NCBI GenBank assembly: GCA_021413965.1
Contig: JAIOPI010000022.1
Coordinates: 124,001-188,000, forward strand
Source of the DNA: Lentisphaerota bacterium
GTDB lineage: Bacteria > Verrucomicrobiota > Kiritimatiellia > UBA8416 > JAIOPI01
Direction: 5' to 3'
Length of the DNA stretch: 64,000 bases
The notes below the pieces were generated by a model. It was given only the letters and a program-made list of their open reading frames with translations, ran no database searches and was not told the origin of the DNA. The translations under genes and the position numbers were made by a program. This document shows positions 19,366 through 46,045 of the stretch, piece after piece (position 1 is the first letter of the stretch; the number at the start of each line of letters is the position of its first letter).

Positions 19366-20241
19366 TCAGAACACGATGTAGCATCCCGGCAAGGCGTCGC
19401 GAATGCGCCGCTGCTCGTCGGGGGAAATGTGGTTTCGCTGCAGGAGCAGCCACTTGAGGCCCGTCATGCGGCGCAGGTCGCTATCGCCCGGCAGGCTGGA
19501 CAGTCCGGTATCGACCAAATCCAGGCGCTGCAAGTTGGGAAGTTCCGTGAGCACGGCTGGAAACACGGCGAGGGGATTGTGGCTCACGTTCACGTCGGTC
19601 AGCCCGGCAAGAGACTTGAATTCAGCCGGCAGCTCATGCAGCTGATTACCTTGCAGATACAAACGTTGCAGGGCCTGCAGGTGGCCAATTTCCGCCGGGA
19701 GCGCTGCCAGTGCGTTGCTATTGAGCCGCAACCACCGCAAGCCGATTAGCCGCCCCACGCCCGCGGGCAGCGCCGTGAGGGCGTTGCGATCCAGGTTCAG
19801 GTAGCGCAGGCTGGCCAAGTCCCCGATCTGTTCCGGCAGGGCACTCAGCGTGTTGTCATTGAGGTACAGCAATTCCAGTTTCGCCAGCCCACCGATTTCG
19901 GCTGGCAGGGCGCTCAGTTGGGCCTCGCCCAAGTCCAGCCATTGCAGATCCGACAGGCGGCCAATCGCCGGCGGCAGGCTCCCGATGGCATTGTGCCGCA
20001 GACTCAGCTTGGCCACGGAGGGAAGGGTTGCGATCTCGGCCGGAAATGCCGTCAGCCCGCGATCATACAGATTGAGAAAAAGGGGTTCGTTGGCAACGGC
20101 CGCGGCACGGGCATCCTCGATGCGCGTGTATTCGGGCATCCGCACAGGGGCGCTCCACGGCAGGCAGCCCGCCAGGCTGATCACCAGAAGCAGGCCCACG
20201 GCTGCGGGCGCCTTCACAAGTCGGGTCTCCAACAAACGCAT
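19366..20241 (-). CDS. Leucine-rich-repeat lipoprotein
   Basis: The 291-residue protein starts with a lipoprotein signal (hydrophobic AAVGLLLVISLAGC; lipobox LAGC). About ten 23-residue leucine-rich repeats of the LxxLxLxxNxLxxLPxxIxxL type fill the rest. Such domains bind proteins; here it would be tethered to a membrane on the periplasmic or outer face. It precedes the histidine kinase on the same strand, so it could be a ligand-binding or scaffolding partner, but only proximity supports this. Confidence 0.8.
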   Translation of the reverse strand: MRLLETRLVKAPAAVGLLLVISLAGCLPWSAPVRMPEYTRIEDARAAAVANEPLFLNLYDRGLTAFPAEIATLPSVAKLSLRHNAIGSLPPAIGRLSDLQWLDLGEAQLSALPAEIGGLAKLELLYLNDNTLSALPEQIGDLASLRYLNLDRNALTALPAGVGRLIGLRWLRLNSNALAALPAEIGHLQALQRLYLQGNQLHELPAEFKSLAGLTDVNVSHNPLAVFPAVLTELPNLQRLDLVDTGLSSLPGDSDLRRMTGLKWLLLQRNHISPDEQRRIRDALPGCYIVF

Positions 20242-20409
20242 GAAATTCAGATTAACACGCGCGCCAAGGGAGTTCCATCACGATTTCCATTCGCGCGCTC
20301 ATGTGACGGCCGTCCGGACCGGGGCGCGGCTTCGGCCGCGGCACGCCCCCGCCCGGGCAGGGCTCGCCTGACAAATATCTCCTTGCCATACCGGACCCCC
20401 ATTTCTAGT

Positions 20410-21150
20410 ATGCCCCGCATGAAAATCAATGCTTCTTTTGTCGTAGCCCTGTTCGGTCTGTGCCTCATCACCGCCTCGACCGCGCAGGCAGAGCCGCGTG
20501 GTAGCAGCAATCTCGGCCGCGAGTATCTCGTGGGTTCCAGCGACAATAGCGGCTGGGTCTGCGGTATGTTCTACCACGCGCGCGAACGCCGGGTCGAAGT
20601 CAGTGACGTCCCGGGTACGCTGGACGACAAAAAGACCGCCGTCTACGTCGGCCACACGCTGCTGCCCTGGATGTCCCTCTATGGCATCGCCGGCATCACC
20701 GATTCCTCGTTCACCACGGTGTTGCCGTCCAAGAGCGATGAAGCATTCCTGTATGGCGCCTCGATGAATCTCGACCTGTTCACTCACGAGATTCAGGACC
20801 CCGTCCTGATGGAGAACCAGATCCGCGTCAATGGGAACCTGACCTACTACGGCAGCCAGACCGAGGTCTTCGGCGAGCAGCAGGCGTTGCAGGACGTGCT
20901 GGCCTCGCTGACCGCCAGCGTCGTCAACGACTTGAACGGCGTCTCGTTGTACATGCCGGAAAGCATCGCCCTGTTCGGCGGCCCCATCTACTCGGCCAGC
21001 CTGAGCAATGACGTGGACGACGGACGTGACGACCAGTTTGGCCTGACCGGCGGTATCGAGGTGTATCAGACCAAGCGCGTCTCCTATTACTTCCGGATTG
21101 AGGAGTTTGCCAAGGTCGGTTACGCGGGCGGCCTGAACGTACGCTTCTAA
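20410..21150 (+). CDS. Small outer-membrane-type beta protein
   Basis: ATG 20410 or 20419 gives a clean signal peptide (MKINASFVVALFGLCLITASTAQA). The mature part of about 220 residues has alternating amphipathic strands and ends in NVRF with a terminal Phe, as outer-membrane beta-barrels usually do. Segments such as VYVGHTLLPWMSLYGIAGI and VSYYFRIEEFAKVGYAGGLNVRF look like barrel strands. I do not recognise a family. It is divergent from the leucine-rich-repeat lipoprotein gene. Confidence 0.6.
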   Translation: MPRMKINASFVVALFGLCLITASTAQAEPRGSSNLGREYLVGSSDNSGWVCGMFYHARERRVEVSDVPGTLDDKKTAVYVGHTLLPWMSLYGIAGITDSSFTTVLPSKSDEAFLYGASMNLDLFTHEIQDPVLMENQIRVNGNLTYYGSQTEVFGEQQALQDVLASLTASVVNDLNGVSLYMPESIALFGGPIYSASLSNDVDDGRDDQFGLTGGIEVYQTKRVSYYFRIEEFAKVGYAGGLNVRF

Positions 21151-22832: not shown

Positions 22833-23711
22833 ATGAAGCGCGCCGCTGAAATCATCGAGTATCTGTCCCGCCCCGATGCGTCACATGCGGTGCTTCTCGC
22901 CCCGAACGCCCCTCCCGTCACGCGCACGTTCCGGGGCGTCGAAGTGGCCCTGAACGTGGTCATGGATGCCGGGGACATTTACGATACGTTGAAGGCCTTG
23001 CTCAGCATGGCGGGCCACCACGATGAGGAACCGGTGCGGGAGAGCGGCACCTTTTCCTTTTCGATGCCTTCCGTCGGCCGGTTCCGGGTACACTATGCCA
23101 CCCAGCGCGGCAGCAAGGTGGCCCGCGTCGCGGTCATCCCCTACACGATTCCGGACCTCGCCCACGTGTGCGCCGATCCTGAGGCGGCCAGACAGGCCAG
23201 TGCCGTGGTGGGCTCCGCCAAGTCCGGCATCATCGCCGTCACCGGCCCCGACGGGACCTGCAACAATGCGCTGGTCTACGCCCTGCTGCGGGAACTGAAC
23301 CAGTCGCAGCGGTTCGTCATCTACATCATCGAGCGCGCCCTCACCTTCCTGGTGGCGCACGGCGAATCGATCATCATCCAGACGGAACTGGGCTCCGATA
23401 TCGACACGCTGGAGAAGGGGCTCGCGAACGCGTTCATGTTTGAGCCCAATGTGGTCTTTGTCGGCGATGTGCGCGCGACGGACAGCATTCCCAGCCTGAT
23501 GCATGCGGTGGGGGCCGGCATGCTCACCATCGTCAGCAGCGTCGCCATCACGGGAGAGCACATGATTAACCAGTATGCGCCCCAGTCTTTGGCCGGTGGA
23601 ACCGTCAGTGACGCCTTTGTCCGCTGCGCCATCCGCGTGACGCCGTTGGCAGACGGGCGGCTTGCCGTCCATGTGCGCGACTTGTCCGGCGAAGGCGGGC
23701 GTCCCTCATGA
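22833..23711 (+). CDS. PilT-like secretion ATPase homologue with degenerate nucleotide site
   Basis: The 292 residues follow the layout of PilT/PilU retraction ATPases: an N-terminal PAS-like domain, then a RecA-like domain with a P-loop position (138-146), an Asp-box position (IYIIERALTFLVAHG), a Walker B position (VVFVGDVRATDS, 207-218) and a His-box position (IVSSVAITG). The key residues are lost. The P-loop reads GPDGTCNNA where PilT has GPTGSGKST, so the catalytic Lys is N144. The Walker B Glu is D212, and the His-box histidine is missing. It is therefore probably not an ATPase. It ends in an ATGA overlap with the REC/GGDEF gene, so the pair is translationally coupled. A role as a regulatory or scaffolding pseudo-enzyme for pili is inferred. 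Confidence 0.75.
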   Translation: MKRAAEIIEYLSRPDASHAVLLAPNAPPVTRTFRGVEVALNVVMDAGDIYDTLKALLSMAGHHDEEPVRESGTFSFSMPSVGRFRVHYATQRGSKVARVAVIPYTIPDLAHVCADPEAARQASAVVGSAKSGIIAVTGPDGTCNNALVYALLRELNQSQRFVIYIIERALTFLVAHGESIIIQTELGSDIDTLEKGLANAFMFEPNVVFVGDVRATDSIPSLMHAVGAGMLTIVSSVAITGEHMINQYAPQSLAGGTVSDAFVRCAIRVTPLADGRLAVHVRDLSGEGGRPS

Positions 23712-25711
23712 CAGACAGCGAACCAAACAAGGCGGCGCGCCTGAACCTTGGCGCCCGCATCGATGCGCTGGATGCGGCCATCCAGGGGCTCAGCTCACAT
23801 GACTCCGACGCCGAGAGCACCCTGCGGGCCTTGGCGGCGTCCACCGTGGAGCAGGCGGCCAACCATCCTGCGTGGTCTGCGGTGCGCGAGTCCGCCGATC
23901 GACTGGCGAAGGCCGAGCCCCCGCAACTGGCGGCCTCAGCCCAGAACTTGATTGGGCGCCTGCGCGAAGCCGCATCGTCTCAGCGCCTGGAGCCCGCCAT
24001 TGTGCTCGTCGGCGGCGAACCGGATTTCTTCGCCCAGTTAGGCGACGCGCTGTCCCATGTCGGGCGTCCCCTCCTGCATGCCCCGACCGGCGCCGAGGCC
24101 CGGCACCTGCTGAAGGAGCGCTCGGCAATCTGCATTGTGTTGCACGTCGTGCTGCCTGATCTTGATGGCCGCATCCTGCTGTCGCGCTTGCGCGAACTTC
24201 CCATCACCGCCTCGATCCCTGTTCTCCTGCTAGCCGAGCGCATTGACGAGTCCCTCAAGGAGGAGAGCCTGCTGCACGCCGCGGACGGCTACCTGGAACA
24301 CACCCGCGACTGCGCCGCCATTGTCCAGTGGGTCAGCGGCCGGCTGCGCCGGGCGCCCGAAGCCGCCCGCGCCGCCCGGCGTGATGCGCTGACCGGCCTG
24401 CTGAACCGGGCCGCCCTGCGCGAGGCCTTTGAGCGCGTCCAGAAGGAATGCGCAGATCGCAACGACCCGCTTTCGCTGGCCACCATCTCGGTCGACAATT
24501 CCCGCGCCCTGCTACATCGCTTCGATACCGATACACGCGAGGATCTCCTGCAGACCTTCGGCGTGCTGCTGTCCAGTTCGCTGCGCTCGACGGACATCGT
24601 CGCGCGATGGGGACTGTATGAGTTCACGGCGCTGTTTCCGGGCGAGGACCACACCGGCGGGACGCGCGCCGTCGAGAAGGTCATCGAGAAACTGCGCGAC
24701 CAGACTTTTGAAACGGCCGGCGGTGAAACCGTCCGACTGTCGATCGCCGCCGGCGTCGTCGCCGTCCAGCCGACCGATGCGCTGGACGACGTCATCGCGC
24801 AGGCCGATCACTTCGTCTATCAAGCCACGGCCAAGGGCGGCAACGTGGTCGTGTCCGAACAGGCTCCCGCCCCCGCGCGCCGGCAGCCCCGCGTGTCCCT
24901 GCTCGTGCGTGACAGCGTCACCACGCAGGTCCTGCGGCAACTGCTGGAGAAAGACAGCTTCGACGTCACGTGCCTGGAACAGTGGGACGACAACGTCGCG
25001 GCCGAGTTTGCACGCCATCGCCCCCACCTGGTCATCATCGACGAGCGGTTCCCGCCTGCAGGCGGAATCGAGATCTTGAAGACCCTGCGCCAGGACCCCC
25101 AGAACAGCCGTCTGCCCATCATCATGCTGGTGGCGGGAAATTCGGAGAACGCCGTCTCGCAGGCGCTGGCCCACGGTGCCAACGACTACATTGTGCGGCC
25201 CTTCTCTCCCTTCTCCTTCGTCAGCCGCACGCACCGCCTGCTCTCGCGCGGCGCGGTCCCGGGCGGGGACCTCTGCCGCATCTTGATCGTGTCGGATGAG
25301 GCCCCGCCCCTGGTCCTGCTCGGGTCTGGGCTCCATCAGCGCGGCGAGTTTGAGGTGCTGCTGGCGCGTGGCGGCAAGCAGGGCCTGGCGCGCCTGCAAG
25401 CCGAGGCGCCCGACGTGTTGCTGGTGGACACCCCCATCGGCCCCGTCGACGGCAAGCCTTTCTGGGAGGCCTTGACCGAGCAGGTCGCAGGCACACCGCT
25501 GACCGTCGTCGTGGCCGAGGCGTCGAGCCACGCGAAGCCCCCGACGTACCCCATCCCCGTCCGCGGTCACATCAAGAAGCCGTTTTCGCCACTCAAGGTC
25601 GGCAGCGAACTCGAGAATCTGCTCGGGCTGACCCCATCGCCGCGACGAAGCGAGGAAGCGAACCAACATCTCAACGCCGAGATCCGCCAGGTGATGAAGA
25701 AGGACCGGTAG
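23708..25711 (+). CDS. REC-GGDEF-REC-REC protein with degenerate cyclase site and intact I-site
   Basis: The 667-residue protein has, after an alpha-helical start (1-92), a first receiver domain (about 95-210). Its phospho-acceptor position is H146 in VLHVVLPDLDG, so it should not be phosphorylated. A GGDEF domain follows (about 225-385). The signature is GLYEF at 302-306 instead of GG[DE]EF, but the RxxD inhibitory-site motif (RSTD, 293-296) is kept at the right distance. Receiver 2 (about 394-510) has D445 but R497 in place of the conserved Lys. Receiver 3 (about 523-640) has D574 and K624. Such a set fits a c-di-GMP receptor rather than a cyclase. It is coupled to the pseudo-PilT gene by an ATGA overlap. 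Confidence 0.8.
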   Translation: MTDSEPNKAARLNLGARIDALDAAIQGLSSHDSDAESTLRALAASTVEQAANHPAWSAVRESADRLAKAEPPQLAASAQNLIGRLREAASSQRLEPAIVLVGGEPDFFAQLGDALSHVGRPLLHAPTGAEARHLLKERSAICIVLHVVLPDLDGRILLSRLRELPITASIPVLLLAERIDESLKEESLLHAADGYLEHTRDCAAIVQWVSGRLRRAPEAARAARRDALTGLLNRAALREAFERVQKECADRNDPLSLATISVDNSRALLHRFDTDTREDLLQTFGVLLSSSLRSTDIVARWGLYEFTALFPGEDHTGGTRAVEKVIEKLRDQTFETAGGETVRLSIAAGVVAVQPTDALDDVIAQADHFVYQATAKGGNVVVSEQAPAPARRQPRVSLLVRDSVTTQVLRQLLEKDSFDVTCLEQWDDNVAAEFARHRPHLVIIDERFPPAGGIEILKTLRQDPQNSRLPIIMLVAGNSENAVSQALAHGANDYIVRPFSPFSFVSRTHRLLSRGAVPGGDLCRILIVSDEAPPLVLLGSGLHQRGEFEVLLARGGKQGLARLQAEAPDVLLVDTPIGPVDGKPFWEALTEQVAGTPLTVVVAEASSHAKPPTYPIPVRGHIKKPFSPLKVGSELENLLGLTPSPRRSEEANQHLNAEIRQVMKKDR

Positions 25712-27972: not shown

Positions 27973-30050
27973 TCACGGCTCCCCCCCGCACCGCCTCCGG
28001 CTTCACCCTGGTCGAAATGGTTATCGCCACGTCGATCCTCGTGGTCGCCATGGCGCTCGCCATGACCGGCTATGTGTACATCTGGGCCGAAACCAACAAG
28101 AGCATCACGCAGGACGAACTCGATATCCAGGTCCAGCAATCCATCGAGGAAATCAAGAAGGACCTCCGCCTGACGGCACTCGAGAAAATCTATTACTTTC
28201 CCGAGGGCGCGGTCACCAACACGGCCATCAGCATGCCCCTGGCACGCGACACCGACGGCGATGGCGCTGTGGACGTGGGGGCCGACGGCAAGATCGTGTG
28301 GGATCGGACGGTGATCTATCACGTTTGGGCCGGGAATCCGACCCAGTTGCGCAAGACCACCTTCTCGCCGCGCGACAATTCGCTGACGGTCACGCAGCTG
28401 CAGGAGCAGCTGAACAGCGTGGCAACGGTCGGCAATGGCACCGCCACGTATAACTCCTCGAATGCCACCACCAAGGTCATCTTCCAGAATCTGTTCACCT
28501 GGAGCGTGCAGCCCCAGAGTTCGAGCTTTGACGGCTACTCCGCCACGAACATGCGCAGCCTGGATGCAGTTCTCGGCTCGACGGTGCTGAGCAATGGCAA
28601 CCAGACCCTGCGGTTCCGCGTGACCGGCAAGAACCCCAGTTCGTCCGGCTACCGCGTCGGCCTGGATACGCTCTTCATGTCCCCGTCCTACGGCGTCCGC
28701 GAGGCGGAGGCACAGTTGCCGGCCACGGCGGTCGTGGGCACGACCATTCCGACCAATGTGTACATGAATGCCGGTTCGTGGAGCGGGAATTATCACTTGT
28801 CCTTCCCCGCGACGGCCACGAATCAATCCTTCACACTCACACTGCCGAACGACCGGTGGGAGGAAACCAACTTCCGCAGCACCGGCGAATTGCACGACGA
28901 CACATCCGTCTTCTTCGATACGAGCCTGGCGCCCACCGACTTCGTCGTCGCCCTGGAAGGCAACTACAGCTACAACTGGTGGGCCACCAACCAAACCGGC
29001 GACGCCTACGGTGGGCAGACCGTGGCCGACAATGTCAAGGGCGCCGCCGTGCGCGTGCTGATCCGCGGCCGGAACATGGAGCCCGGCAAGGCCATCGATT
29101 TCAGCGGCGGCAAGACCTGGGTGCTCTTCCGGTCAGGCACCGGCCCGCTCACCATCACGGACGCATTCATCGCCGAAGCCAATGCCACGGATGGAATCGC
29201 CACGATGGACGCGGTGCCCGGCACCACCACGCGCCTGAGATTCGGCGGCGCAAACAGTCTCTCCTTAAGCAGCAGCGGCAGCGCGTCGTGGTGCGACCAG
29301 GCGTCCACCTTCCCCATCGACAAGCGCAAGAGCTACCTGGTGACCTATCTGGTCAGCCCCACGGCGGGCTATGGCAACGCCTGGCGCTGGCTTGAGACCA
29401 ACACGATGGATTACGTGGGAGCCTACATGATTGCCGCCTCCAACAGCCCCACGGCAGGCACGGCCGCCGCCGAGAATTGGAGTACACGTTCGGACGTCTA
29501 CACCACCAATTCCATTCCGGCCGTCTGGGCCACGTGGGTGACCTATCCCACCAACGGAACCTACACGTCGGCCATCTTCGATACGCAACACAACGCGGCT
29601 CCGTTCACCGGCATCGCGTGGAACTCCGTCATTCCGTCGGGTGGTTACCTCGGCATGCGGGTCCGCTCGGGCAATAGCAACGACCTCTCGGACGCCGCCA
29701 GCTGGACCAACCTCGCCGCCATGACCTCACCCGGGGCGATCAATCCCGGCAACAAGCGCTACGTTCAGTTCCAGGCCACCCTCCGACCCTCGTCCGGGGG
29801 GAACCTGACGCCCAAGCTGCGCGATGTGGCCATCAGTTGGCCGGCGGAGACCAGGATCGTGGACATTGGCGGGACGTTCACCAAAGGCCCGGATTACGGC
29901 ATTTTCGAAATGCTGGTGAACGGACAGGCGATCAAGAAGGGCGTGGTTGTGAATCTGGAGATCTTCGATTACACGCGCGCCCACGGGACCAGCAACCGCA
30001 TCACCTCGGCCGCCACCACTGAAGTGACGCCGCGCAACAGTGGCCGCTGA
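27969..30050 (+). CDS. Very large PilW/GspJ-like prepilin
   Basis: The start at ATG 27969 overlaps the previous stop. The 693-residue product begins with a prepilin signal ASG^FTLVEMVIATSILVVAMA and Glu at +5. Ordinary PilW/GspJ proteins have about 200-350 residues. The extra 400 or so residues form Thr/Asn/Ser-rich beta-sandwich-like sequence, which may be a tip-displayed ligand-binding domain. A DTDGDGAVDVGADG calcium-loop-like stretch lies near residue 95. It is second in the prepilin operon, which suggests a minor pilin carrying an adhesive head; this is inferred. Confidence 0.75.
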   Translation: MITAPPRTASGFTLVEMVIATSILVVAMALAMTGYVYIWAETNKSITQDELDIQVQQSIEEIKKDLRLTALEKIYYFPEGAVTNTAISMPLARDTDGDGAVDVGADGKIVWDRTVIYHVWAGNPTQLRKTTFSPRDNSLTVTQLQEQLNSVATVGNGTATYNSSNATTKVIFQNLFTWSVQPQSSSFDGYSATNMRSLDAVLGSTVLSNGNQTLRFRVTGKNPSSSGYRVGLDTLFMSPSYGVREAEAQLPATAVVGTTIPTNVYMNAGSWSGNYHLSFPATATNQSFTLTLPNDRWEETNFRSTGELHDDTSVFFDTSLAPTDFVVALEGNYSYNWWATNQTGDAYGGQTVADNVKGAAVRVLIRGRNMEPGKAIDFSGGKTWVLFRSGTGPLTITDAFIAEANATDGIATMDAVPGTTTRLRFGGANSLSLSSSGSASWCDQASTFPIDKRKSYLVTYLVSPTAGYGNAWRWLETNTMDYVGAYMIAASNSPTAGTAAAENWSTRSDVYTTNSIPAVWATWVTYPTNGTYTSAIFDTQHNAAPFTGIAWNSVIPSGGYLGMRVRSGNSNDLSDAASWTNLAAMTSPGAINPGNKRYVQFQATLRPSSGGNLTPKLRDVAISWPAETRIVDIGGTFTKGPDYGIFEMLVNGQAIKKGVVVNLEIFDYTRAHGTSNRITSAATTEVTPRNSGR

Positions 30051-30183
30051 TGGTGGGCCGGATTCGAGAATGGACGAGATGGTGCAATCGTCGGCGGGAC
30101 GTCACGTGCGGCGCCCCGTGAAGGGGCGCGCGGGGATTGCCAACGTTGGGTCGGACGTGTTCGGAGTAAAGGAGGAAGTGGTC

Positions 30184-31347
30184 ATGCAAACGTCGCACCG
30201 CAGTTCAAACAGGCGTGAGGGGTCCGCCCTGTTCACGGTCATGCTGATCGTCCTGGTGATTGCCGCCCTGTTGGGCATCACCTGCAAAGCCAGCGTTCAA
30301 CGCGTCTTCACCGCCCGCAAACTGGCGGACCGCGTACGCGCGCTGTCCATTGCCGAAGCCGGCGCCAACAAGGCCTACGCCATTCTGCAGAATGACTTCA
30401 ATGCGCGGCTCGATGACACGCCATTCCCACTCACGTCCTATGCGGGCGGCACTTATGATGTCAGCGTGGCGACCGTGGGCGTGTTTGTGGCCGTGGTCTC
30501 CAGCGAGGGGCACTATGGTACGGCCGACGCGCAGGTTGTTGTCGACGTGAAGAACTACGGCGCGAGCTCGAATGCCGTACAAAACTCGTCCGCGCTGAAC
30601 TACTCGATCTTGTGTGGCGGCACCTTCGATTTTGGCGGCTGCGGCACGATCAGCAGTTCCAACGGCGCGGCCCTGCTGCACTCCAATGGAGGCCTGACCA
30701 TACGCGGTGACGCCCAGGTGGGACTGGACATCCGCTCCTCAACCAAGATCACCCTGTCCAACGGCGTGGATATCAACGGTCGCGTGACGTCGCCCACGCT
30801 GTCGTACAACGCGTCCAAAGTCACGTCCACGGGCGGCTTCTTCCAGCAGGCCGTGCCGCTGGTGCCGATCCCCGATCTCGACTTCACGCCGTTCAATGCC
30901 TGGGCCGCTAGTCACGGAGAGGTCAAGAATGGCGGCTGGTCGCTGAGCGGCGGCACCTACAACGCCAACGGCGGCGTGATCTGGGTCAACGGTGATGTCC
31001 AGATTTCCAGTTCAACCATTGTCAACGGGTCGATCTTTGCCACCGGGAGCATCAAACTCGCCGGCTCGGCGGTCATCAACCACGGCGATTCCGGCATCGC
31101 CATCGCCGCGCGCGATGGCAACATCGACTACCAGACCAGCGGCGCCACCTACGGGATGATCTATGCCAAGACCGGCAGTTTCACGCAGACATCAAACGGT
31201 CGCATGGAAGGGCAGATGATCATCAAGGGCAACATCAACAAGGGCGGCGCTTCCGACGAAATGTTGTATGTCAAAACGATCCTGACCACGCCCGGTGTGA
31301 CGTCGAGCGCCTCCGATCTGATAGGCGTTTCGGCCTGGCAGAAGTAG
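30184..31347 (+). CDS. PilX-like pilus assembly protein
   Basis: The start at ATG 30184 is fixed by a strong AAAGGAGG ribosome-binding site 8 bases upstream. The 387-residue product begins with NRREGSALFTVMLIVLVIAALLGI, the SALxxVLxxLxxxxxL hydrophobic start typical of PilX N-terminal domains, followed by IAEAGANKAY. The C-terminal 230 residues are Ser/Gly/Asn-rich repeated beta strands like a polymer-forming bactofilin-type or beta-helix fold. It is third in the prepilin operon and is followed 23 bases later by a terminator. Confidence 0.75.
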   Translation: MQTSHRSSNRREGSALFTVMLIVLVIAALLGITCKASVQRVFTARKLADRVRALSIAEAGANKAYAILQNDFNARLDDTPFPLTSYAGGTYDVSVATVGVFVAVVSSEGHYGTADAQVVVDVKNYGASSNAVQNSSALNYSILCGGTFDFGGCGTISSSNGAALLHSNGGLTIRGDAQVGLDIRSSTKITLSNGVDINGRVTSPTLSYNASKVTSTGGFFQQAVPLVPIPDLDFTPFNAWAASHGEVKNGGWSLSGGTYNANGGVIWVNGDVQISSSTIVNGSIFATGSIKLAGSAVINHGDSGIAIAARDGNIDYQTSGATYGMIYAKTGSFTQTSNGRMEGQMIIKGNINKGGASDEMLYVKTILTTPGVTSSASDLIGVSAWQK

Positions 31348-37440: not shown

Positions 37441-40400
37441 TCAACGGCCGTCTCCTGCTCGGTAACGCTGGCGGGCGTCATCGTTGCCGTTGCTTTCGGG
37501 CTCGACACCCTGCCCAGGCATCAATCGAGCGCTGCCATGACGGACATCCGTCGGCACCCGAATGCGGAACGTATGGCCGATTATCCCGGACTCCGGGACG
37601 GCGCGCAACGCCTTGAAATCGGCTCCGTAGGGTTCCACCAGCAGTGCAGAGATGCTGGCCACGGTGACTCCAGATATCTGTGACAGGGCCGCCACCCAGG
37701 CCGCATGGTCGGCCGCTCCCGCCTGCCAGTGACGCGTGCGCCCCATGAATCCACGTAAAGAAGGTTCCGCCACGGGCATGCCGTAGATGGTGACCGGATC
37801 CACGAAGCCGAAGTATAGCAGGTGCGGTGAGTGCCCTCGATTGGCCGCCGTCACGGCGGCCCAATGTGCCTCCAACTCCTCAATATCCTGTCCCCAGTCG
37901 TAGTTGCTGTCCACCATCCAGCGCGAACCGCCCGACACGCCGCCCGCCCATGCGGGGTAGTAGCTGATGAAATGCGGATAGCAGGCCGTCGCCGCGATCG
38001 ACGCCAACACCAGCCCGGCGGCCACACCATGGCGCCATCTCCTTGCGGGCAGGCTGGCCACCCAGAGCGCTGCCGCCAGGATGCCCACGGTCACCACCGG
38101 CAGCGCGTGGCGCACGCCGATGGCGAGCCGGTTGGCAAAGACCAGCAGGAGCAGCAAGACCCCGAACGGAATCCAGGGAATGGCACGTTGTAACCGGACA
38201 TGTCGCCAAGACGCGACGCATGCCAGGAGCGCGGCCAACACCCATACCGGCGGCGATTTCAGAACGAGCGCCACCGGCATGTACCACCACGGGGCGCGCA
38301 GCAGTTGCATCCCGTGGAAGTAGGCCCGATGGCCGGCGAGGCTGTGCTGCTCCTGCGCGATCAGTCCTTCCACAAAACGGCCAGCTGGCATGGCCACCCC
38401 GGTGAGCCAACCGTCCACCGGCCCTCGAATGACTTGCGGCTCGAAGCCGTAGAGTCCAAGCAGGAGCGCGGCCAGCGAGGCTATGCCAAGCGGAAGTTGA
38501 GCGAGCGGGCGCCAGGACCGCCTCGTCCATGCCACCATCGGGATCACGATGACGAGGTAACTCAGCCACCATATCAACCCGCTGTGTTTCGTGGCCGCCG
38601 CCGCGGCAAACGAGAGGGTCGCCCATCCCAAGGAGCGCGCATCGGGTGCCTGCATCGCCCGCCACAGCAGGGCGGTTCCCAGCATGGCAAATGCCGTCAC
38701 CCCCATATCCGTCGTGGCGAGATTGCCATGCGCGAGCAAAGCTGGATTGAGCGCGAGCCCGAGGCCGGCTATCCAGGCCGCCGTCGGCCCGCGCCAACGA
38801 TGTGCCCACCACACGCAGGTCCCGATCAGCAAGGCCAGAAAGGCCGCCGAACCGCTGCGCGCCGAGCGGATCAGGTCCGGGTAGAACGTGCGGTTGGCGT
38901 CAGCAAAGGCGCAGGAGAAGGACCAGATGTCGGCCTGTTTCCACCCGGGATCACGCGTCGGGATGGTCAAGCGCTCGCCGAAGGCGAGGTTCGCGAAATA
39001 GGCGCTCGCGAGGTTCTGGAGGGGAGGATGAAAGTAGCTCAGGCGCGTATCGCCGGTGCGGAGCGCGGCCACGCCGCGCGCCACGTGGAAGCCTTCGTCG
39101 AATGTGCAGGCCCAGTGCGCCCGCGCCCCCAGCCCCAGCGACAAGGCCACCAGGATACATGCCGATGCTGAAACGAGCGGGCTACGCCAGGTGGCGCTGG
39201 CGCGAACGGCGGTCGACCCGCATACCAGCCCCGCGAGCAGGACGCCCGCCAGCGCGAGCCACAGACCGGCCCGCCAGCCCGCCGGGGTATACTGGAATCG
39301 CACCTGGGTGGTGTCCGCCGGAAGCGCGACGCACATGAGTCCCACGCGTGTCGGGGAGATCGCGAGCCGGCCACCGCCCTGGTCGCAGGCCGACCAACCG
39401 GGGGCCCACGTCTCGCGCACCAGCAACTCGCAGGGATCACCGGCGGTCACATCCACACGAAAATATCCGGGGCGGAAGCGGTGTACGCGAGCCGTGCGCG
39501 GGGATGTTTCGGCATCCTCATGGTGACGCTCGTGGAGACTCACGCAAACAGCCTCCTGAACGTGGCGCAAGTGCAACAGCGTAAGCGCACCGCTCGGGCC
39601 CCACGTGGAGGCGGGCTCGGCATCCAAACCCAGCGCCAGGAATTCCGTACTGCGAGTGCCGGTGGTCAGCAGCCACTCGACGGCGGTGTCCCGGCAGAAG
39701 GCGATGAGCGGCTTGGCGTCAGGGCTGGCGCCGCCGGGGGGCGTCACGGCGCGATCCCGATAGGCACGCATGGTCGCGGATTCCAGCGGCGAGAAACCGC
39801 CTGCCGTGCGCAGGCCCCAGAGCACCGGGCTGTTGAAATCGAGCAGCGATCGACTCAGCAGCACCCGCCGTTCGTCAACGGAGAGCGCGGACAAGTCGAC
39901 TTCGGACGGGGCGGCGACACTGGCGGGATCATGCAGGACACGCCCCTCGCGAGCGCCGGATTGCCGGATGGTTTGCGCCACCAGGGGCGTGGTCAGCGGA
40001 TCGAAATGCGAGGTGGTCGGAATCTCAATGAACCATGCCATCCCGGCATCGATGACAACCAGCGCCACCACGATGCCTGCGGCCACCCTGGGTGAGGCGC
40101 CGCGCAGGTTCCGCAAGCCAGCCAACGTCAATACCACAAGCAGCAGCAGTTCCGCCCAGAAAACACGGGACCATGACCAGCCCTCGCTCGCGGGCATGGC
40201 CAGTCCGCAGAGGACCGCCGTTGACAATGCCGTACCGCCGGCCAAGACCGTCAGCCAGCCGCGTGTCAGTCGCCCCAGGTCCCGCCACCGTCCGGCACGT
40301 GCGCAAGCCAGCAGCATGCTGGTGCCGTAGGCGGCCAGGACAGCCAAGCCCAGACTCAGCCAGAGAATGTATTTCTCAGGATAGCGGAAGCCACCAAGGA

Positions 40401-41463
40401 TGGGGAGTTGCAGCCAGCAGCGGAATCCAGGCAGGAACCCACCCATGCTCAGTAGCGCGGCGCCCAGAGACAGCAGCAGGGACCAACGCAACACTGGCCG
40501 GGCACGGCGGACCAGCGACAGCCACACCAGTCCAAAGGCGAGGCGCCCAATGTGAATCGATGCCGTCCATGGCAACGCGTGGTCGGCCTGCGGCGCCGCG
40601 AGTGCATCACCGAGCCAGGCCCCGCGCGGCCCAAAGAGATACGGGACCAGCAGTTCAAGGAATCTTGCCGGATGCAAAGACCGTTCGATGGCTTCCGTCC
40701 ACGGCATTCCGCCCGCACGATAGGAATCGGCTTCGGCATACGCCGTGGGGACCCACTGGGGAGCCGCAAGCAGTCCACCCATCACCAGCGCCACGGCCAA
40801 TGCGGGCAGCATCCGTCGCCGGCGCGGATGCAGGATGGCCAGCAGGAACGCGACGGGAACCCAAAGCACGGCCGCCTGGAAATCGCCTCCCACCAGCATC
40901 ATCCACCAGCAAGCGGCGGCACCGAGAATGGCCATCCTCGACCGGGGTGACGCGTCGCGCCCGGCGAATAACAGGGCCGCCAGACCCAACGGAATCCAGG
41001 GCATTGCCACGATGTTGTACGTGTCCCACATGCCCCGCGCATAGCCGCAGGCCGCATATGATAGCGCGCCGACGGCAGCGGCCGCTGTCGACCGCCGCAG
41101 TCCGCGTCGCACCAGCAGGTACATCCCGGCGAGGCTCAGGACGACATGCGCAAAGACAAAGAGGTGCAGGCCCGGCCGCAACGGCAGAAACCAGCACATC
41201 ACTCGCAGCGGATAGAGGACCCCGGCATTGATGTTGGCCAACAGGGGCGTGCCGGAGCATACCGATGACGACCAGAACGGCCAGTGACCGGACAGTATCT
41301 GCGCGCGCGCGTCCTGGATCACCGGCAACGTGTACAGGAGGGTGTCCCAGCGAAAGAGGCTGCGCCCGGGGATCAGAAGTTCCACGCCGAACAGCACGGC
41401 CAGCGCTGCGCCGAGCACGAGCCAGGTAAACCGTCGACAGGTTGGTATCTGACTGGATTTCAT
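37441..41463 (-). CDS. Giant polytopic membrane protein: YfhO-like half fused to a GT39/PMT-like half
   Basis: The start is placed at ATG 41463, just before the first hydrophobic helix (1340 residues); a GTG at 41532 would add 23. The N-terminal half is YfhO-like, with many membrane helices and the early loop GHWPFWSSSVCSGTPLLANINAG. It includes a long soluble segment (about 500-720). The C-terminal half restarts with a new set of helices after TFDEGFHVARGVAAL (near residue 788). The Asp-Glu there matches the catalytic acidic pair at the first loop of ArnT/PMT-type GT-C glycosyltransferases that use polyprenyl-linked sugars. A later DSNYDWGQDIEEL motif is seen in related proteins. A role in glycosylating an envelope polymer or protein, possibly pilins, is inferred. 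Confidence 0.78.
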   Translation of the reverse strand: MKSSQIPTCRRFTWLVLGAALAVLFGVELLIPGRSLFRWDTLLYTLPVIQDARAQILSGHWPFWSSSVCSGTPLLANINAGVLYPLRVMCWFLPLRPGLHLFVFAHVVLSLAGMYLLVRRGLRRSTAAAAVGALSYAACGYARGMWDTYNIVAMPWIPLGLAALLFAGRDASPRSRMAILGAAACWWMMLVGGDFQAAVLWVPVAFLLAILHPRRRRMLPALAVALVMGGLLAAPQWVPTAYAEADSYRAGGMPWTEAIERSLHPARFLELLVPYLFGPRGAWLGDALAAPQADHALPWTASIHIGRLAFGLVWLSLVRRARPVLRWSLLLSLGAALLSMGGFLPGFRCWLQLPILGGFRYPEKYILWLSLGLAVLAAYGTSMLLACARAGRWRDLGRLTRGWLTVLAGGTALSTAVLCGLAMPASEGWSWSRVFWAELLLLVVLTLAGLRNLRGASPRVAAGIVVALVVIDAGMAWFIEIPTTSHFDPLTTPLVAQTIRQSGAREGRVLHDPASVAAPSEVDLSALSVDERRVLLSRSLLDFNSPVLWGLRTAGGFSPLESATMRAYRDRAVTPPGGASPDAKPLIAFCRDTAVEWLLTTGTRSTEFLALGLDAEPASTWGPSGALTLLHLRHVQEAVCVSLHERHHEDAETSPRTARVHRFRPGYFRVDVTAGDPCELLVRETWAPGWSACDQGGGRLAISPTRVGLMCVALPADTTQVRFQYTPAGWRAGLWLALAGVLLAGLVCGSTAVRASATWRSPLVSASACILVALSLGLGARAHWACTFDEGFHVARGVAALRTGDTRLSYFHPPLQNLASAYFANLAFGERLTIPTRDPGWKQADIWSFSCAFADANRTFYPDLIRSARSGSAAFLALLIGTCVWWAHRWRGPTAAWIAGLGLALNPALLAHGNLATTDMGVTAFAMLGTALLWRAMQAPDARSLGWATLSFAAAAATKHSGLIWWLSYLVIVIPMVAWTRRSWRPLAQLPLGIASLAALLLGLYGFEPQVIRGPVDGWLTGVAMPAGRFVEGLIAQEQHSLAGHRAYFHGMQLLRAPWWYMPVALVLKSPPVWVLAALLACVASWRHVRLQRAIPWIPFGVLLLLLVFANRLAIGVRHALPVVTVGILAAALWVASLPARRWRHGVAAGLVLASIAATACYPHFISYYPAWAGGVSGGSRWMVDSNYDWGQDIEELEAHWAAVTAANRGHSPHLLYFGFVDPVTIYGMPVAEPSLRGFMGRTRHWQAGAADHAAWVAALSQISGVTVASISALLVEPYGADFKALRAVPESGIIGHTFRIRVPTDVRHGSARLMPGQGVEPESNGNDDARQRYRAGDGR

Positions 41464-41568
41464 CGCTTGCCAGTGGGCCGCTACAGGCACTATCCTGCCA
41501 GCTGCGCAGGTGTGCGACATCTGGATGGTCACCTGCCAGGCGCTCCGTGATCAGCCCATTGCCGACGC

Positions 41569-43208: not shown

Positions 43209-44093
43209 TCAGACCGCCGGGCTGCCAGCCGACTTGGCCTGTGCCTCGCGTGCCCGGTTCATCACGCGGTCGAATTCGGATGGCAGGCACATGAAGAAGT
43301 GGCAGGGGCGCCCCACAATACTGGCCACGCTTTTGCGCAACTTCTGATCGCCCGGGTTCATCACCACCACCAGCGCCTCGTTTCCAATGGAGTCAAAAAC
43401 GACGGCCCCGCGCCGCAACATGAAGTCAAAAGGCAGGGCCGTCAGCGCCGATGGCTGAATGTCAAACATGCCCAGCGAAACAATGGGCGCGCCATTTTCC
43501 TTGGATACCGCCAGCATCAGTCGCTCTAGATTCTTGAATGCCCGGAATTCCAGCGCGTGCAGGACGGAAACCGTCGCGCTGCCATCCCCCGACGACATGT
43601 CGGTCAGGTCCTGGACCAGATTGGCGTATTCTTCCTGGCTGACATGGTTGCCTTCGAGCAGCGCCCATGCAAATGACAGTTCGTCCGCAAGATTGAAGGC
43701 TTCGAAGCGCGGTTCCGCGCTCTGCTCGTCGATGCCGAGATCGAGCAGTTCATCGGAAGCGTCCGTCATGTCACCGCGCGTGGCGGCGAATCGCGCCGTC
43801 AGGTTCTCACGCACTTTGGCGACGGCGGGGTCCTGCTCCGCATGTGGCGCCAGCTGGCGCACCAAGAGTGCCGCGGCATCCGCATCCCCTTCGTCCAGCA
43901 CGACCTTGGCCAGACGAAGCAGGTATTCCTTGGCCCGCGTCAAGTCACCGATCTGGCCGTAGGCATGCGACAGCGCTTCCAGCGAGGCGCGGTCATTGGG
44001 CATCGCCTCGAGGATCTGCTCGAATGCCGAAATGGCAATCCATACTTCCTCTTCAGCCGCCGTCTGCTGACGCTTCTCTGAATTGTCGCTCAT
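43209..44093 (-). CDS. TPR protein with a free-standing MshEN/GspE-N-like domain
   Basis: ATG 44093 (MSDNSEKRQQTAAEEEVW) gives 294 residues. The N-terminal 120 residues look like tetratricopeptide repeats (IAISAFEQILEAMPNDRASLEALSHAYGQIGD). The C-terminal 130 residues resemble the N-terminal domain of GspE/PilB: a helical piece (VSQEEYANLVQDLT) and then LGMFDIQPSALTALPFDFMLRRGAVVFDSIGNEALVVVMNPGD in two short lines of homology. There is no ATPase domain. MshEN domains of PilB-like ATPases can bind c-di-GMP or contact the platform complex. The gene is divergent from pilB, with 239 bases between starts. Function unknown; a pilus regulator is plausible. Confidence 0.65.
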   Translation of the reverse strand: MSDNSEKRQQTAAEEEVWIAISAFEQILEAMPNDRASLEALSHAYGQIGDLTRAKEYLLRLAKVVLDEGDADAAALLVRQLAPHAEQDPAVAKVRENLTARFAATRGDMTDASDELLDLGIDEQSAEPRFEAFNLADELSFAWALLEGNHVSQEEYANLVQDLTDMSSGDGSATVSVLHALEFRAFKNLERLMLAVSKENGAPIVSLGMFDIQPSALTALPFDFMLRRGAVVFDSIGNEALVVVMNPGDQKLRKSVASIVGRPCHFFMCLPSEFDRVMNRAREAQAKSAGSPAV

Positions 44094-44332
44094 GCCGCCA
44101 TTCCGTCGTGATACATGGAGTGCCCCGGTCACCGCCGGCGGCGCCGCGCGCCACGGCACGACGTCAACTCCACACGCGGAGCTTAGGCTGGTGTTGCGCC
44201 GGAAGTCAAATGCGAAGCCTGCCGGCGAGCCCGCCTCGCCGGCTGATGATTGCACCAGAAAAGGGATTGGCACCATGCGGTTGCTGTGACAGAATACCGA
44301 CCTCAAGCGGATCAAGGGTGCCGCGAATTCCT

Positions 44333-46045
44333 ATGGCGAAAAAGAAATACAGCGGCAGAATTTCGGATATTCTGCTTCAGCGCAAAATCCTCGAATTGGA
44401 GACCCTGCAGGATGCCGAGGAAGAAGCGCGCGTTCAAGGAATTCGGCTCGAGAAGTACCTGACCGAGAAGAAACTCGTCAAGAGCGTCGACATGACGCTC
44501 GCGTTGGCCGAGTACCTCAAGATGGCGCCCATCACGCTGGCGCACTTCACGCCGGACCCGCAGTTGCTCGAGCTGATTCCCCGGGAGACCATGGCCAAGC
44601 GCCTGGTCGTGCCCATGGCGCGCCTCGGACGCAATCTGACCATTGCCATGGGCGACCCCTTCGACCTCATGGCCATCGATGAAATTGCCACCTTGACTGG
44701 GCTCACCATCACGCCGCTGGCCGCCCCGGATCATGAAATCACGCTGGCTTTGTCCAAGCTGTTCCAGGAAACGTCCCAGGGTTTCGACATGGAAGAGATG
44801 ATGCGGGAAAGCGAGAGCGACGTCGAAGTTGTCGAGGAGCAGCAGGAAGAGCTCAGCCTGGAAGAGATGCTGGAGAGCGCCGAAGGTGCCCCCGTCATCC
44901 GCATGGTCAACATGATGCTGGTCGAGGCCCTGCGCACGGGAGCCAGCGATATTCACCTGGAGCCCATGGAGAAGAAACTCCGGCTGCGCTACCGCATCGA
45001 CGGCGTGTTGGTCGAGCGCCCCAGCCCTCCTAAGAATTTACAGGCGGCCGTCATTTCGCGCGTCAAGATCATGTCCGATTTGAATATCGCCGAGCGGCGT
45101 GTGCCGCAGGACGGTCGATTCAACATCAAGGCACTGGGCAAAGAAGTGGATCTGCGAGTGAGCATCCTGCCCGCCGTGCATGGCGAGAAGGTCGTCATGC
45201 GTATCCTGGACAAATCCGCCTTGTCCCCCAGCCTATCGGCCTTGGGCCTCGACCCGCAATCGCAGGAAGGCTTGGTATACGCCATCAACCAGCCCCACGG
45301 CATTATCCTGGTCACCGGACCGACCGGCAGTGGCAAGACCACGACGCTCTACTCGTGCCTCCAGGACCTAAACAAGCCGGACGTCAATATCATCACCTGC
45401 GAAGATCCGGTCGAGTATCAGTTGGAAGGTATCAACCAGGTTCAGATCAACGCCGACGTTGGGCTGACCTTTGCCGCCGCACTCCGTTCCATTCTGCGGC
45501 AGGATCCCGATATCGTGCTCGTCGGCGAAGTCCGCGACGGCGAGACGGCTGAAATTGCGATCAAGGCGGCGCTTACGGGACACTTGGTCTTGAGCACGCT
45601 GCACACAAATGATGCTCCCGGCGCCGTGACGCGTCTGATCGACATGGGAATCGAGCCCTTCATGCTGGGATCCTGCCTTATCCTGGCCCAGGCGCAACGC
45701 CTGTACCGCAAACTCTGCTCAGCCTGCAAGGCTCCGACGGATATCCCCCCTGATATTCTCCGCATCAACAGCATCGACCCTGCCTTTTTCGCCGGCGCCA
45801 CACTGTTCAAACCTGTCGGTTGTCCGCGCTGCTCCAGTGGCTACAAAGGGCGGGGCGCCATCATGGAAGTCTTGTTGGTCAACGATGCCTTGAGAAATGG
45901 CATCCTGATGGGGGCCAACACGTCGGAAATCCGTGAACTGGCGCGTAAAGGCGGCATGATTACGCTGAAAGAGGCTGGTTTGTCCCGTGCCCGGGACGGA
46001 TTCACCAGCCTGGAGGCCGCGCTCGAGGTCACCGGCGGCGAGTAA
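44333..46045 (+). CDS. pilB: Type IV pilus / type II secretion assembly ATPase (PilB/GspE)
   Basis: The 570-residue product from ATG 44333 has an MshEN-type N-terminal domain (about 1-145), an acidic linker, and the ATPase core. Walker A is GPTGSGKTTT (329-338), the Asp box is ITCEDPVEYQ, Walker B is DIVLVGEVRD (393-402) and the His box is STLHTNDAPG. A zinc-binding tetracysteine is at C462, C465, C497 and C500. All catalytic elements are intact, unlike the PilT-like protein at 22833. It powers pilin polymerisation from the cytoplasmic face, with PilC encoded next. The GspE versus PilB assignment rests on the neighbouring pilMNOPQ set. Confidence 0.9.
   Translation: MAKKKYSGRISDILLQRKILELETLQDAEEEARVQGIRLEKYLTEKKLVKSVDMTLALAEYLKMAPITLAHFTPDPQLLELIPRETMAKRLVVPMARLGRNLTIAMGDPFDLMAIDEIATLTGLTITPLAAPDHEITLALSKLFQETSQGFDMEEMMRESESDVEVVEEQQEELSLEEMLESAEGAPVIRMVNMMLVEALRTGASDIHLEPMEKKLRLRYRIDGVLVERPSPPKNLQAAVISRVKIMSDLNIAERRVPQDGRFNIKALGKEVDLRVSILPAVHGEKVVMRILDKSALSPSLSALGLDPQSQEGLVYAINQPHGIILVTGPTGSGKTTTLYSCLQDLNKPDVNIITCEDPVEYQLEGINQVQINADVGLTFAAALRSILRQDPDIVLVGEVRDGETAEIAIKAALTGHLVLSTLHTNDAPGAVTRLIDMGIEPFMLGSCLILAQAQRLYRKLCSACKAPTDIPPDILRINSIDPAFFAGATLFKPVGCPRCSSGYKGRGAIMEVLLVNDALRNGILMGANTSEIRELARKGGMITLKEAGLSRARDGFTSLEAALEVTGGE

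Follow-up and report, generated by a model that had tools for sequence, protein, structure and literature searches.

The locus examined here raises the question of why a PilT-like protein that lacks its ATP site should be encoded directly before a GGDEF protein that lacks its cyclase motif, and whether the two could form a module that works by binding instead of catalysis. The window, i.e., the whole stretch of 64,000 nucleotides that was analysed, was originally predicted to hold such a coupled pair, in which c-di-GMP sensing is passed to a pilus motor-like protein. Two coupled open reading frames are indeed present on the forward strand, the first encoding 292 residues (pseudo-PilT) and the second 667 residues in the order four-helix region, REC, GGDEF, REC, REC (the degenerate GGDEF protein). 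They are laid out as follows.

22833..23711, + strand: pseudo-PilT gene, a PilT fold without the C-terminal subdomain (open reading frame, Pfam, NCBIfam, AlphaFold and Foldseek)
22833..23153, + strand: N2D (PAS-like) domain with a family-conserved GRFR...QRG motif common to PilT (alignment)
23244..23270, + strand: degenerate P-loop GPDGTCNNA, residues 138-146, Lys replaced by N144 (Lys absent from the column in 19 sequences)
23448..23474, + strand: degenerate Walker B region NVVFVGDVR, residues 206-214 (alignment)
23523..23546, + strand: degenerate His box LTIVSSVA, residues 231-238 (alignment)
23708..23711, + strand: ATGA overlap of the pseudo-PilT stop with the GGDEF-protein start
23708..25711, + strand: degenerate-GGDEF multi-receiver protein, 667 residues
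23744..23980, + strand: N-terminal four-helix region, residues 13-91, possibly a degenerate HPt, with no Pfam support
23996..24349, + strand: REC1, residues 97-214, phospho-Asp replaced by H146
24377..24853, + strand: degenerate GGDEF domain, residues 224-382
24584..24595, + strand: RSTD I-site motif, residues 293-296, Arg and Asp invariant in 19 of 19 sequences
24611..24625, + strand: GLYEF at the GGDEF position, residues 302-306
24890..25249, + strand: REC2, residues 395-514, phospho-Asp D445 retained
25274..25627, + strand: REC3, residues 523-640, phospho-Asp D574 and Lys retained

The first protein has the fold of PilT but not its catalytic residues. Pfam places a T2SSE match at residues 108-234 (5.4e-7), and the PilT/PilU family TIGR01420 matches at 5e-24 with 85 bits, below its curated cut-off of 319. 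The AlphaFold model, built on an alignment of nine sequences, has a mean pLDDT of 89, and its top Foldseek matches are PilT/PilU structures (2ewv, E 3e-18; 5fl3, TM 0.78); both the N2D domain and the RecA core are present, while the chain stops short of the C-terminal subdomain of PilT. Alignment bears out the predicted loss of three catalytic elements. The P-loop reads G138-PDGTCN144-NA, with N144 where Lys is expected, the Walker-B-like strand VFVGDVR carries Asp at the position of PilT's Glu, and TIVS stands in place of the TLHT His box. The canonical GspE/PilB sequences L019 and L004, which the first alignment had read on the wrong strand, were left out of account. The original prediction had overlooked both the missing C-terminal subdomain and the retention of the Asp-box Glu (E167), which is found in 18 of the 19 family sequences.

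In the degenerate GGDEF protein, GLYEF, H146 and RSTD lie exactly where they had been reported. PleD is the nearest solved structure for the GGDEF domain, and counting residue by residue along the PleD alignment puts S261, L269 and Y304 at the positions of D327, N335 and E370, R293xxD296 at that of the R359xxD362 I-site and K324 at that of R390. The PleD family is also the best NCBIfam match (147 bits against a cut-off of 474), with CbrR among the other matches, but the REC-REC-GGDEF order of PleD is not found, since the GGDEF domain lies here between REC1 and REC2. The Pfam scan revealed no EAL domain in this protein, and neither protein matched BcsE in Pfam or among the NCBIfam results listed. 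Two features had gone unremarked, namely the phospho-Asp retained in REC2 (D445) and in REC3 (D574), and the N-terminal 95 or so residues, predicted as four helices. An HPt identity for these helices was considered on their count and was set aside, Pfam giving no support. The full-length AlphaFold model has a low pTM of 0.33, and its inter-domain arrangement was not used.

Conservation across the window's class distinguishes maintained pseudoenzymes from failing genes. A single-protein contig search gave no relatives, and the alignment was too divergent for a pattern search. Pseudo-PilT occurs in 19 of 346 genomes (19 sequences); the P-loop Lys is absent from all 19, its column varying freely between N, L, A and T, while 12-13 non-catalytic columns are invariant (G82, R83, Q91, R92, G93, Q183, E185 and others). 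A maximum-likelihood tree that also includes ten intact PilT sequences of the same class places pseudo-PilT in one clade with support of 100/99, subject to a long-branch warning, so that on this sample the P-loop loss is, by phylogeny, ancient and single. In a phylum-wide sample of 388 genomes, pseudo-PilT turned up in the window's class only, which is probably Kiritimatiellia; as far as sampled, the proposed module is restricted to this class.

Of the same 346 genomes, 18 were found to encode the degenerate GGDEF protein, with 19 copies in all. GG(D/E)EF is found in none of the 19, the nearest approach being GGCEF in genome G101, and the residue at the E370 position is of six other types across homologues and Glu once. 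In contrast, the RxxD residues R293 and D296 are present in 19 of 19, and the secondary I-site position 324 is Lys or Arg in 18 of 18. Only 12 of 159 columns in the GGDEF domain are invariant, R293 and D296 included, at a mean majority fraction of 0.54. Active cyclases often have D296 and R300 as well, which leaves R293 as the informative residue. Among the receivers, REC1 has lost its Asp (to H, N or S) in lineages where the genes are linked and retains it in most homologues of families f22 and f38, where they are not; REC2 has Asp or Glu in every homologue and REC3 is variable. Genome G061 carries a second, more divergent copy (G061:C84:17857-19590; L221 4846-6642) with Ser for the REC1 phospho-Asp and no REC3 Asp. 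The claim that both catalytic sites are lost with the ligand motif retained therefore extends to the families, with RxxD invariant and the catalytic residues variable. A restored P-loop or GGDEF motif, or random decay, which the original prediction named as evidence against itself, was seen in no homologue examined. Open reading frames stay intact across 29-61% identity and, judged by these patterns, both proteins are conserved pseudoenzymes, not decaying genes.

The two families also tend to travel together. Both are present in 12 genomes where about one is expected, with Fisher p-values of 1.6e-13 when genomes are counted, 8e-8 for genera and about 6e-4 for families (some 44 families assumed); since genomes of the same clade are not independent, these values overstate the case and the family figure is the safer. 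The genes are immediate neighbours in five genomes (G000, G002, G003, G006 and G015) from three families, overlapping by 4 bases at one extreme and separated by 22 at the other, and the 4-base overlap recurs in two of the three. They lie apart in f22 and f38, and are unlinked in 7 of the 12 genomes that have both. Seven genomes hold pseudo-PilT alone and six the GGDEF protein alone; deeper profile searches of these genomes, several of them 73-89% complete, did not find the missing partner and gave only weaker matches, as from ordinary PilT/GspE and other GGDEF proteins. Downstream of the G101 GGDEF protein, a 282-residue gene of pseudo-PilT length was considered as a partner and turned out to encode an M48 peptidase. 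In G022, pseudo-PilT is followed directly by the biotin-ligase gene, which in the window comes after the pair. Given the genomes with one protein only, pairing is not obligatory.

The surroundings say little of pili. In the window the pair is flanked by DNA glycosylase and biotin ligase genes, and elsewhere by housekeeping or unrelated genes (tRNA synthetases, DNA polymerase III alpha, phosphofructokinase, glycosyltransferases and others); none of the loci examined had a pilus gene as a conserved neighbour. Pseudopilin-like genes begin about 1 kb downstream, beyond the biotin ligase, and at about 18 kb there is a type IV pilus/T2SS-like set, comprising a 733-residue PilB-like ATPase (43844-46045) that is extended at its N terminus and has an MshEN domain, then genes for T2SSF/PilC and for a sigma-54 response regulator. 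The genome encodes at least 15 other T2SSE-family ATPases, three of them, of PilB/PilT type, seen to have an intact P-loop, and six other GGDEF proteins, with an intact GG(D/E)EF seen in two.

Several further observations concern these loci. The pseudo-PilT loci of several lineages share an upstream gene for a signal-peptide, outer-membrane-barrel-like protein, as well as a divergent gene for a leucine-rich-repeat lipoprotein, the repeats being read from sequence (window 19366-21150; L069 828-1589; L071 275-1938; L074 2577-3335; L073 4840-5697); the barrel-like protein of G002 has no Pfam match. Genomes G062 and G063 have the GGDEF protein but no pseudo-PilT, and there the gene that comes after it encodes a GAF-sigma54 activator (L223 3436-4980; L228 3709-5190). 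The window also contains a 435-residue open reading frame beside the pseudopilin-like genes (30040-31347), matching neither Pfam nor NCBIfam, and one of 1363 residues on the reverse strand (37441-41532) with no Pfam match, an open reading frame not being proof of a gene.

We tentatively propose that the pair is a non-catalytic c-di-GMP effector module acting on a pilus or T2SS motor through binding, a reading that we prefer while holding it, as a whole, to be somewhat doubtful. Its steps differ in strength. The REC-GGDEF-REC-REC protein probably binds c-di-GMP, because its I-site is invariant in a catalytically dead domain; it would act as a receptor through the RxxD I-site and the K324 secondary site, with no synthesis, and REC2 and REC3 may add a phosphorylation input. 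RxxD is common in GGDEF domains, however, and its retention alone is no proof of binding. A direct partnership of the two proteins is suggested by their co-occurrence and adjacency, which tilt the balance slightly in its favour. Pseudo-PilT, which keeps the N2D domain and RecA core of PilT, could then be an ATP-independent adaptor that associates with PilT-family rings or partners, and c-di-GMP binding may alter how the receptor engages it. The weakest step is the output, in which pseudo-PilT would compete with PilT or PilB, or cap them, and in this way tune the motor of a type IV pilus or type II secretion system; since the neighbours are not pilus genes, the homology of the fold is what points to it, and we put this step at a little short of even. 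In its most specific and rather improbable form, the ATP-site-less PilT family might act on pilus motors as a brake or clutch, gated by a c-di-GMP signal that reaches it via the degenerate GGDEF protein.

Other explanations would account for parts of these data. Decay toward loss would fit the multiple missing catalytic motifs, and two GGDEF-protein sequences (G001 and G075) look truncated or frameshifted, where a contig ends, as in G001, or where the assembly is a draft; this is contradicted by the intact reading frames over the full range of identity, the invariant non-catalytic columns of pseudo-PilT, the invariant I-site and the high-confidence fold, and we regard it as negligible. Scarcely more credible is an unconventional catalysis in one or both proteins, which might for example bind nucleotide despite the missing canonical Lys, or act as a cyclase through a degenerate motif. 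An AGDEF protein of Vibrio cholerae is reported to be an active cyclase (PMC3974145), and the near-constant Asp-box Glu and the single GGCEF homologue could be read in the same direction. Against this, the positions of PleD D327, N335 and E370 are lost here and in nearly all homologues, and pseudo-PilT has lost not one but all three of P-loop Lys, Walker B Glu and His box.

Two readings deserve more weight, and both accept functional pseudoenzymes. These could be two independent regulators that have become neighbours by chance in some lineages and do no joint work, as the genomes with one protein only and the unlinked majority of genomes with both would suggest; against this, the two occur together far more often than expected even when genera are counted, and three families have them as immediate neighbours, two with the 4-base overlap, so that such independence is unlikely. 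Alternatively, the pair may resemble the BcsE assembly module and have no pilus role, pseudo-PilT being an oligomerising or targeting platform and the degenerate REC-GGDEF protein sensing c-di-GMP on behalf of a different envelope process, for example the export of polysaccharide or a system of outer-membrane proteins. BcsE itself unites a degenerate REC-GGDEF, which binds c-di-GMP through RxxD, with a predicted RecA-like domain that has no working Walker A (PMC7439463). The conserved neighbours in several lineages are moreover the outer-membrane-barrel-like and leucine-rich-repeat lipoprotein genes, not pilus genes, and at some loci the adjoining genes are for sugars or polysaccharides (O-antigen ligase-like, glycosyltransferase and UDP-sugar dehydrogenase). 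Pseudo-PilT is, however, specifically of PilT/PilU type and the polysaccharide neighbours vary by lineage, so this alternative, too, appears rather unlikely.

These losses have consequences beyond this locus. That the whole ATP site is missing throughout a PilT-type clade implies that a PilT fold can persist solely for binding, and a lineage-wide pseudoenzyme pair with an invariant ligand motif offers a way into c-di-GMP control of pilus-like machines outside the Proteobacteria. Were the brake or clutch to prove real, it would be a pilus-motor regulator built from a dead motor.

How new the arrangement is depends on the level of comparison. The original prediction that no described system has this make-up was too strong, with BcsE (PMC7439463) and FimX-PilB (PMC5595344) standing as precedents; our literature search, with many journals outside its coverage, found neither a P-loop-less PilT family nor one coupled to a degenerate GGDEF receptor. 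Pseudo-PilT shares with PilT/PilU (TIGR01420) the fold, the GRFR..QRG motif of N2D and the RecA core, but forms a separate clade without the P-loop Lys, Walker B Glu, His box and C-terminal subdomain. A structural role for a dead PilT is possible, as PilT Walker mutants still support PilU-driven retraction (PMC6821130). BcsE resembles the pair in its predicted RecA-like NTPase domain and degenerate REC-GGDEF, but is one polypeptide with one REC instead of three and serves cellulose export; a relationship to PilT is not reported in the part of that source available (PMC7439463). FimX, which works with PilB and PilZ, likewise has a REC without phospho-Asp and a degenerate GGDEF, and exerts non-catalytic c-di-GMP control over a pilus ATPase (PMC5595344, PMC11656802); unlike the GGDEF protein described here, it binds c-di-GMP by an EAL domain, and its partner PilB is an active ATPase. 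PleD resembles the GGDEF protein in structure and, like CbrR, in family match, and CbrR binds c-di-GMP and loses that binding on mutation of the autoinhibitory site (PMC8779298), whereas here the GGDEF domain stands between receivers and lacks the catalytic residues. PilB/MshE ATPases of the MshEN type share with the proposed module a c-di-GMP input to a pilus ATPase, but there the ATPase binds the ligand itself, with no separate degenerate GGDEF protein. Each ingredient is therefore known, and we regard the pair as a lineage-restricted variant of c-di-GMP effector modules.
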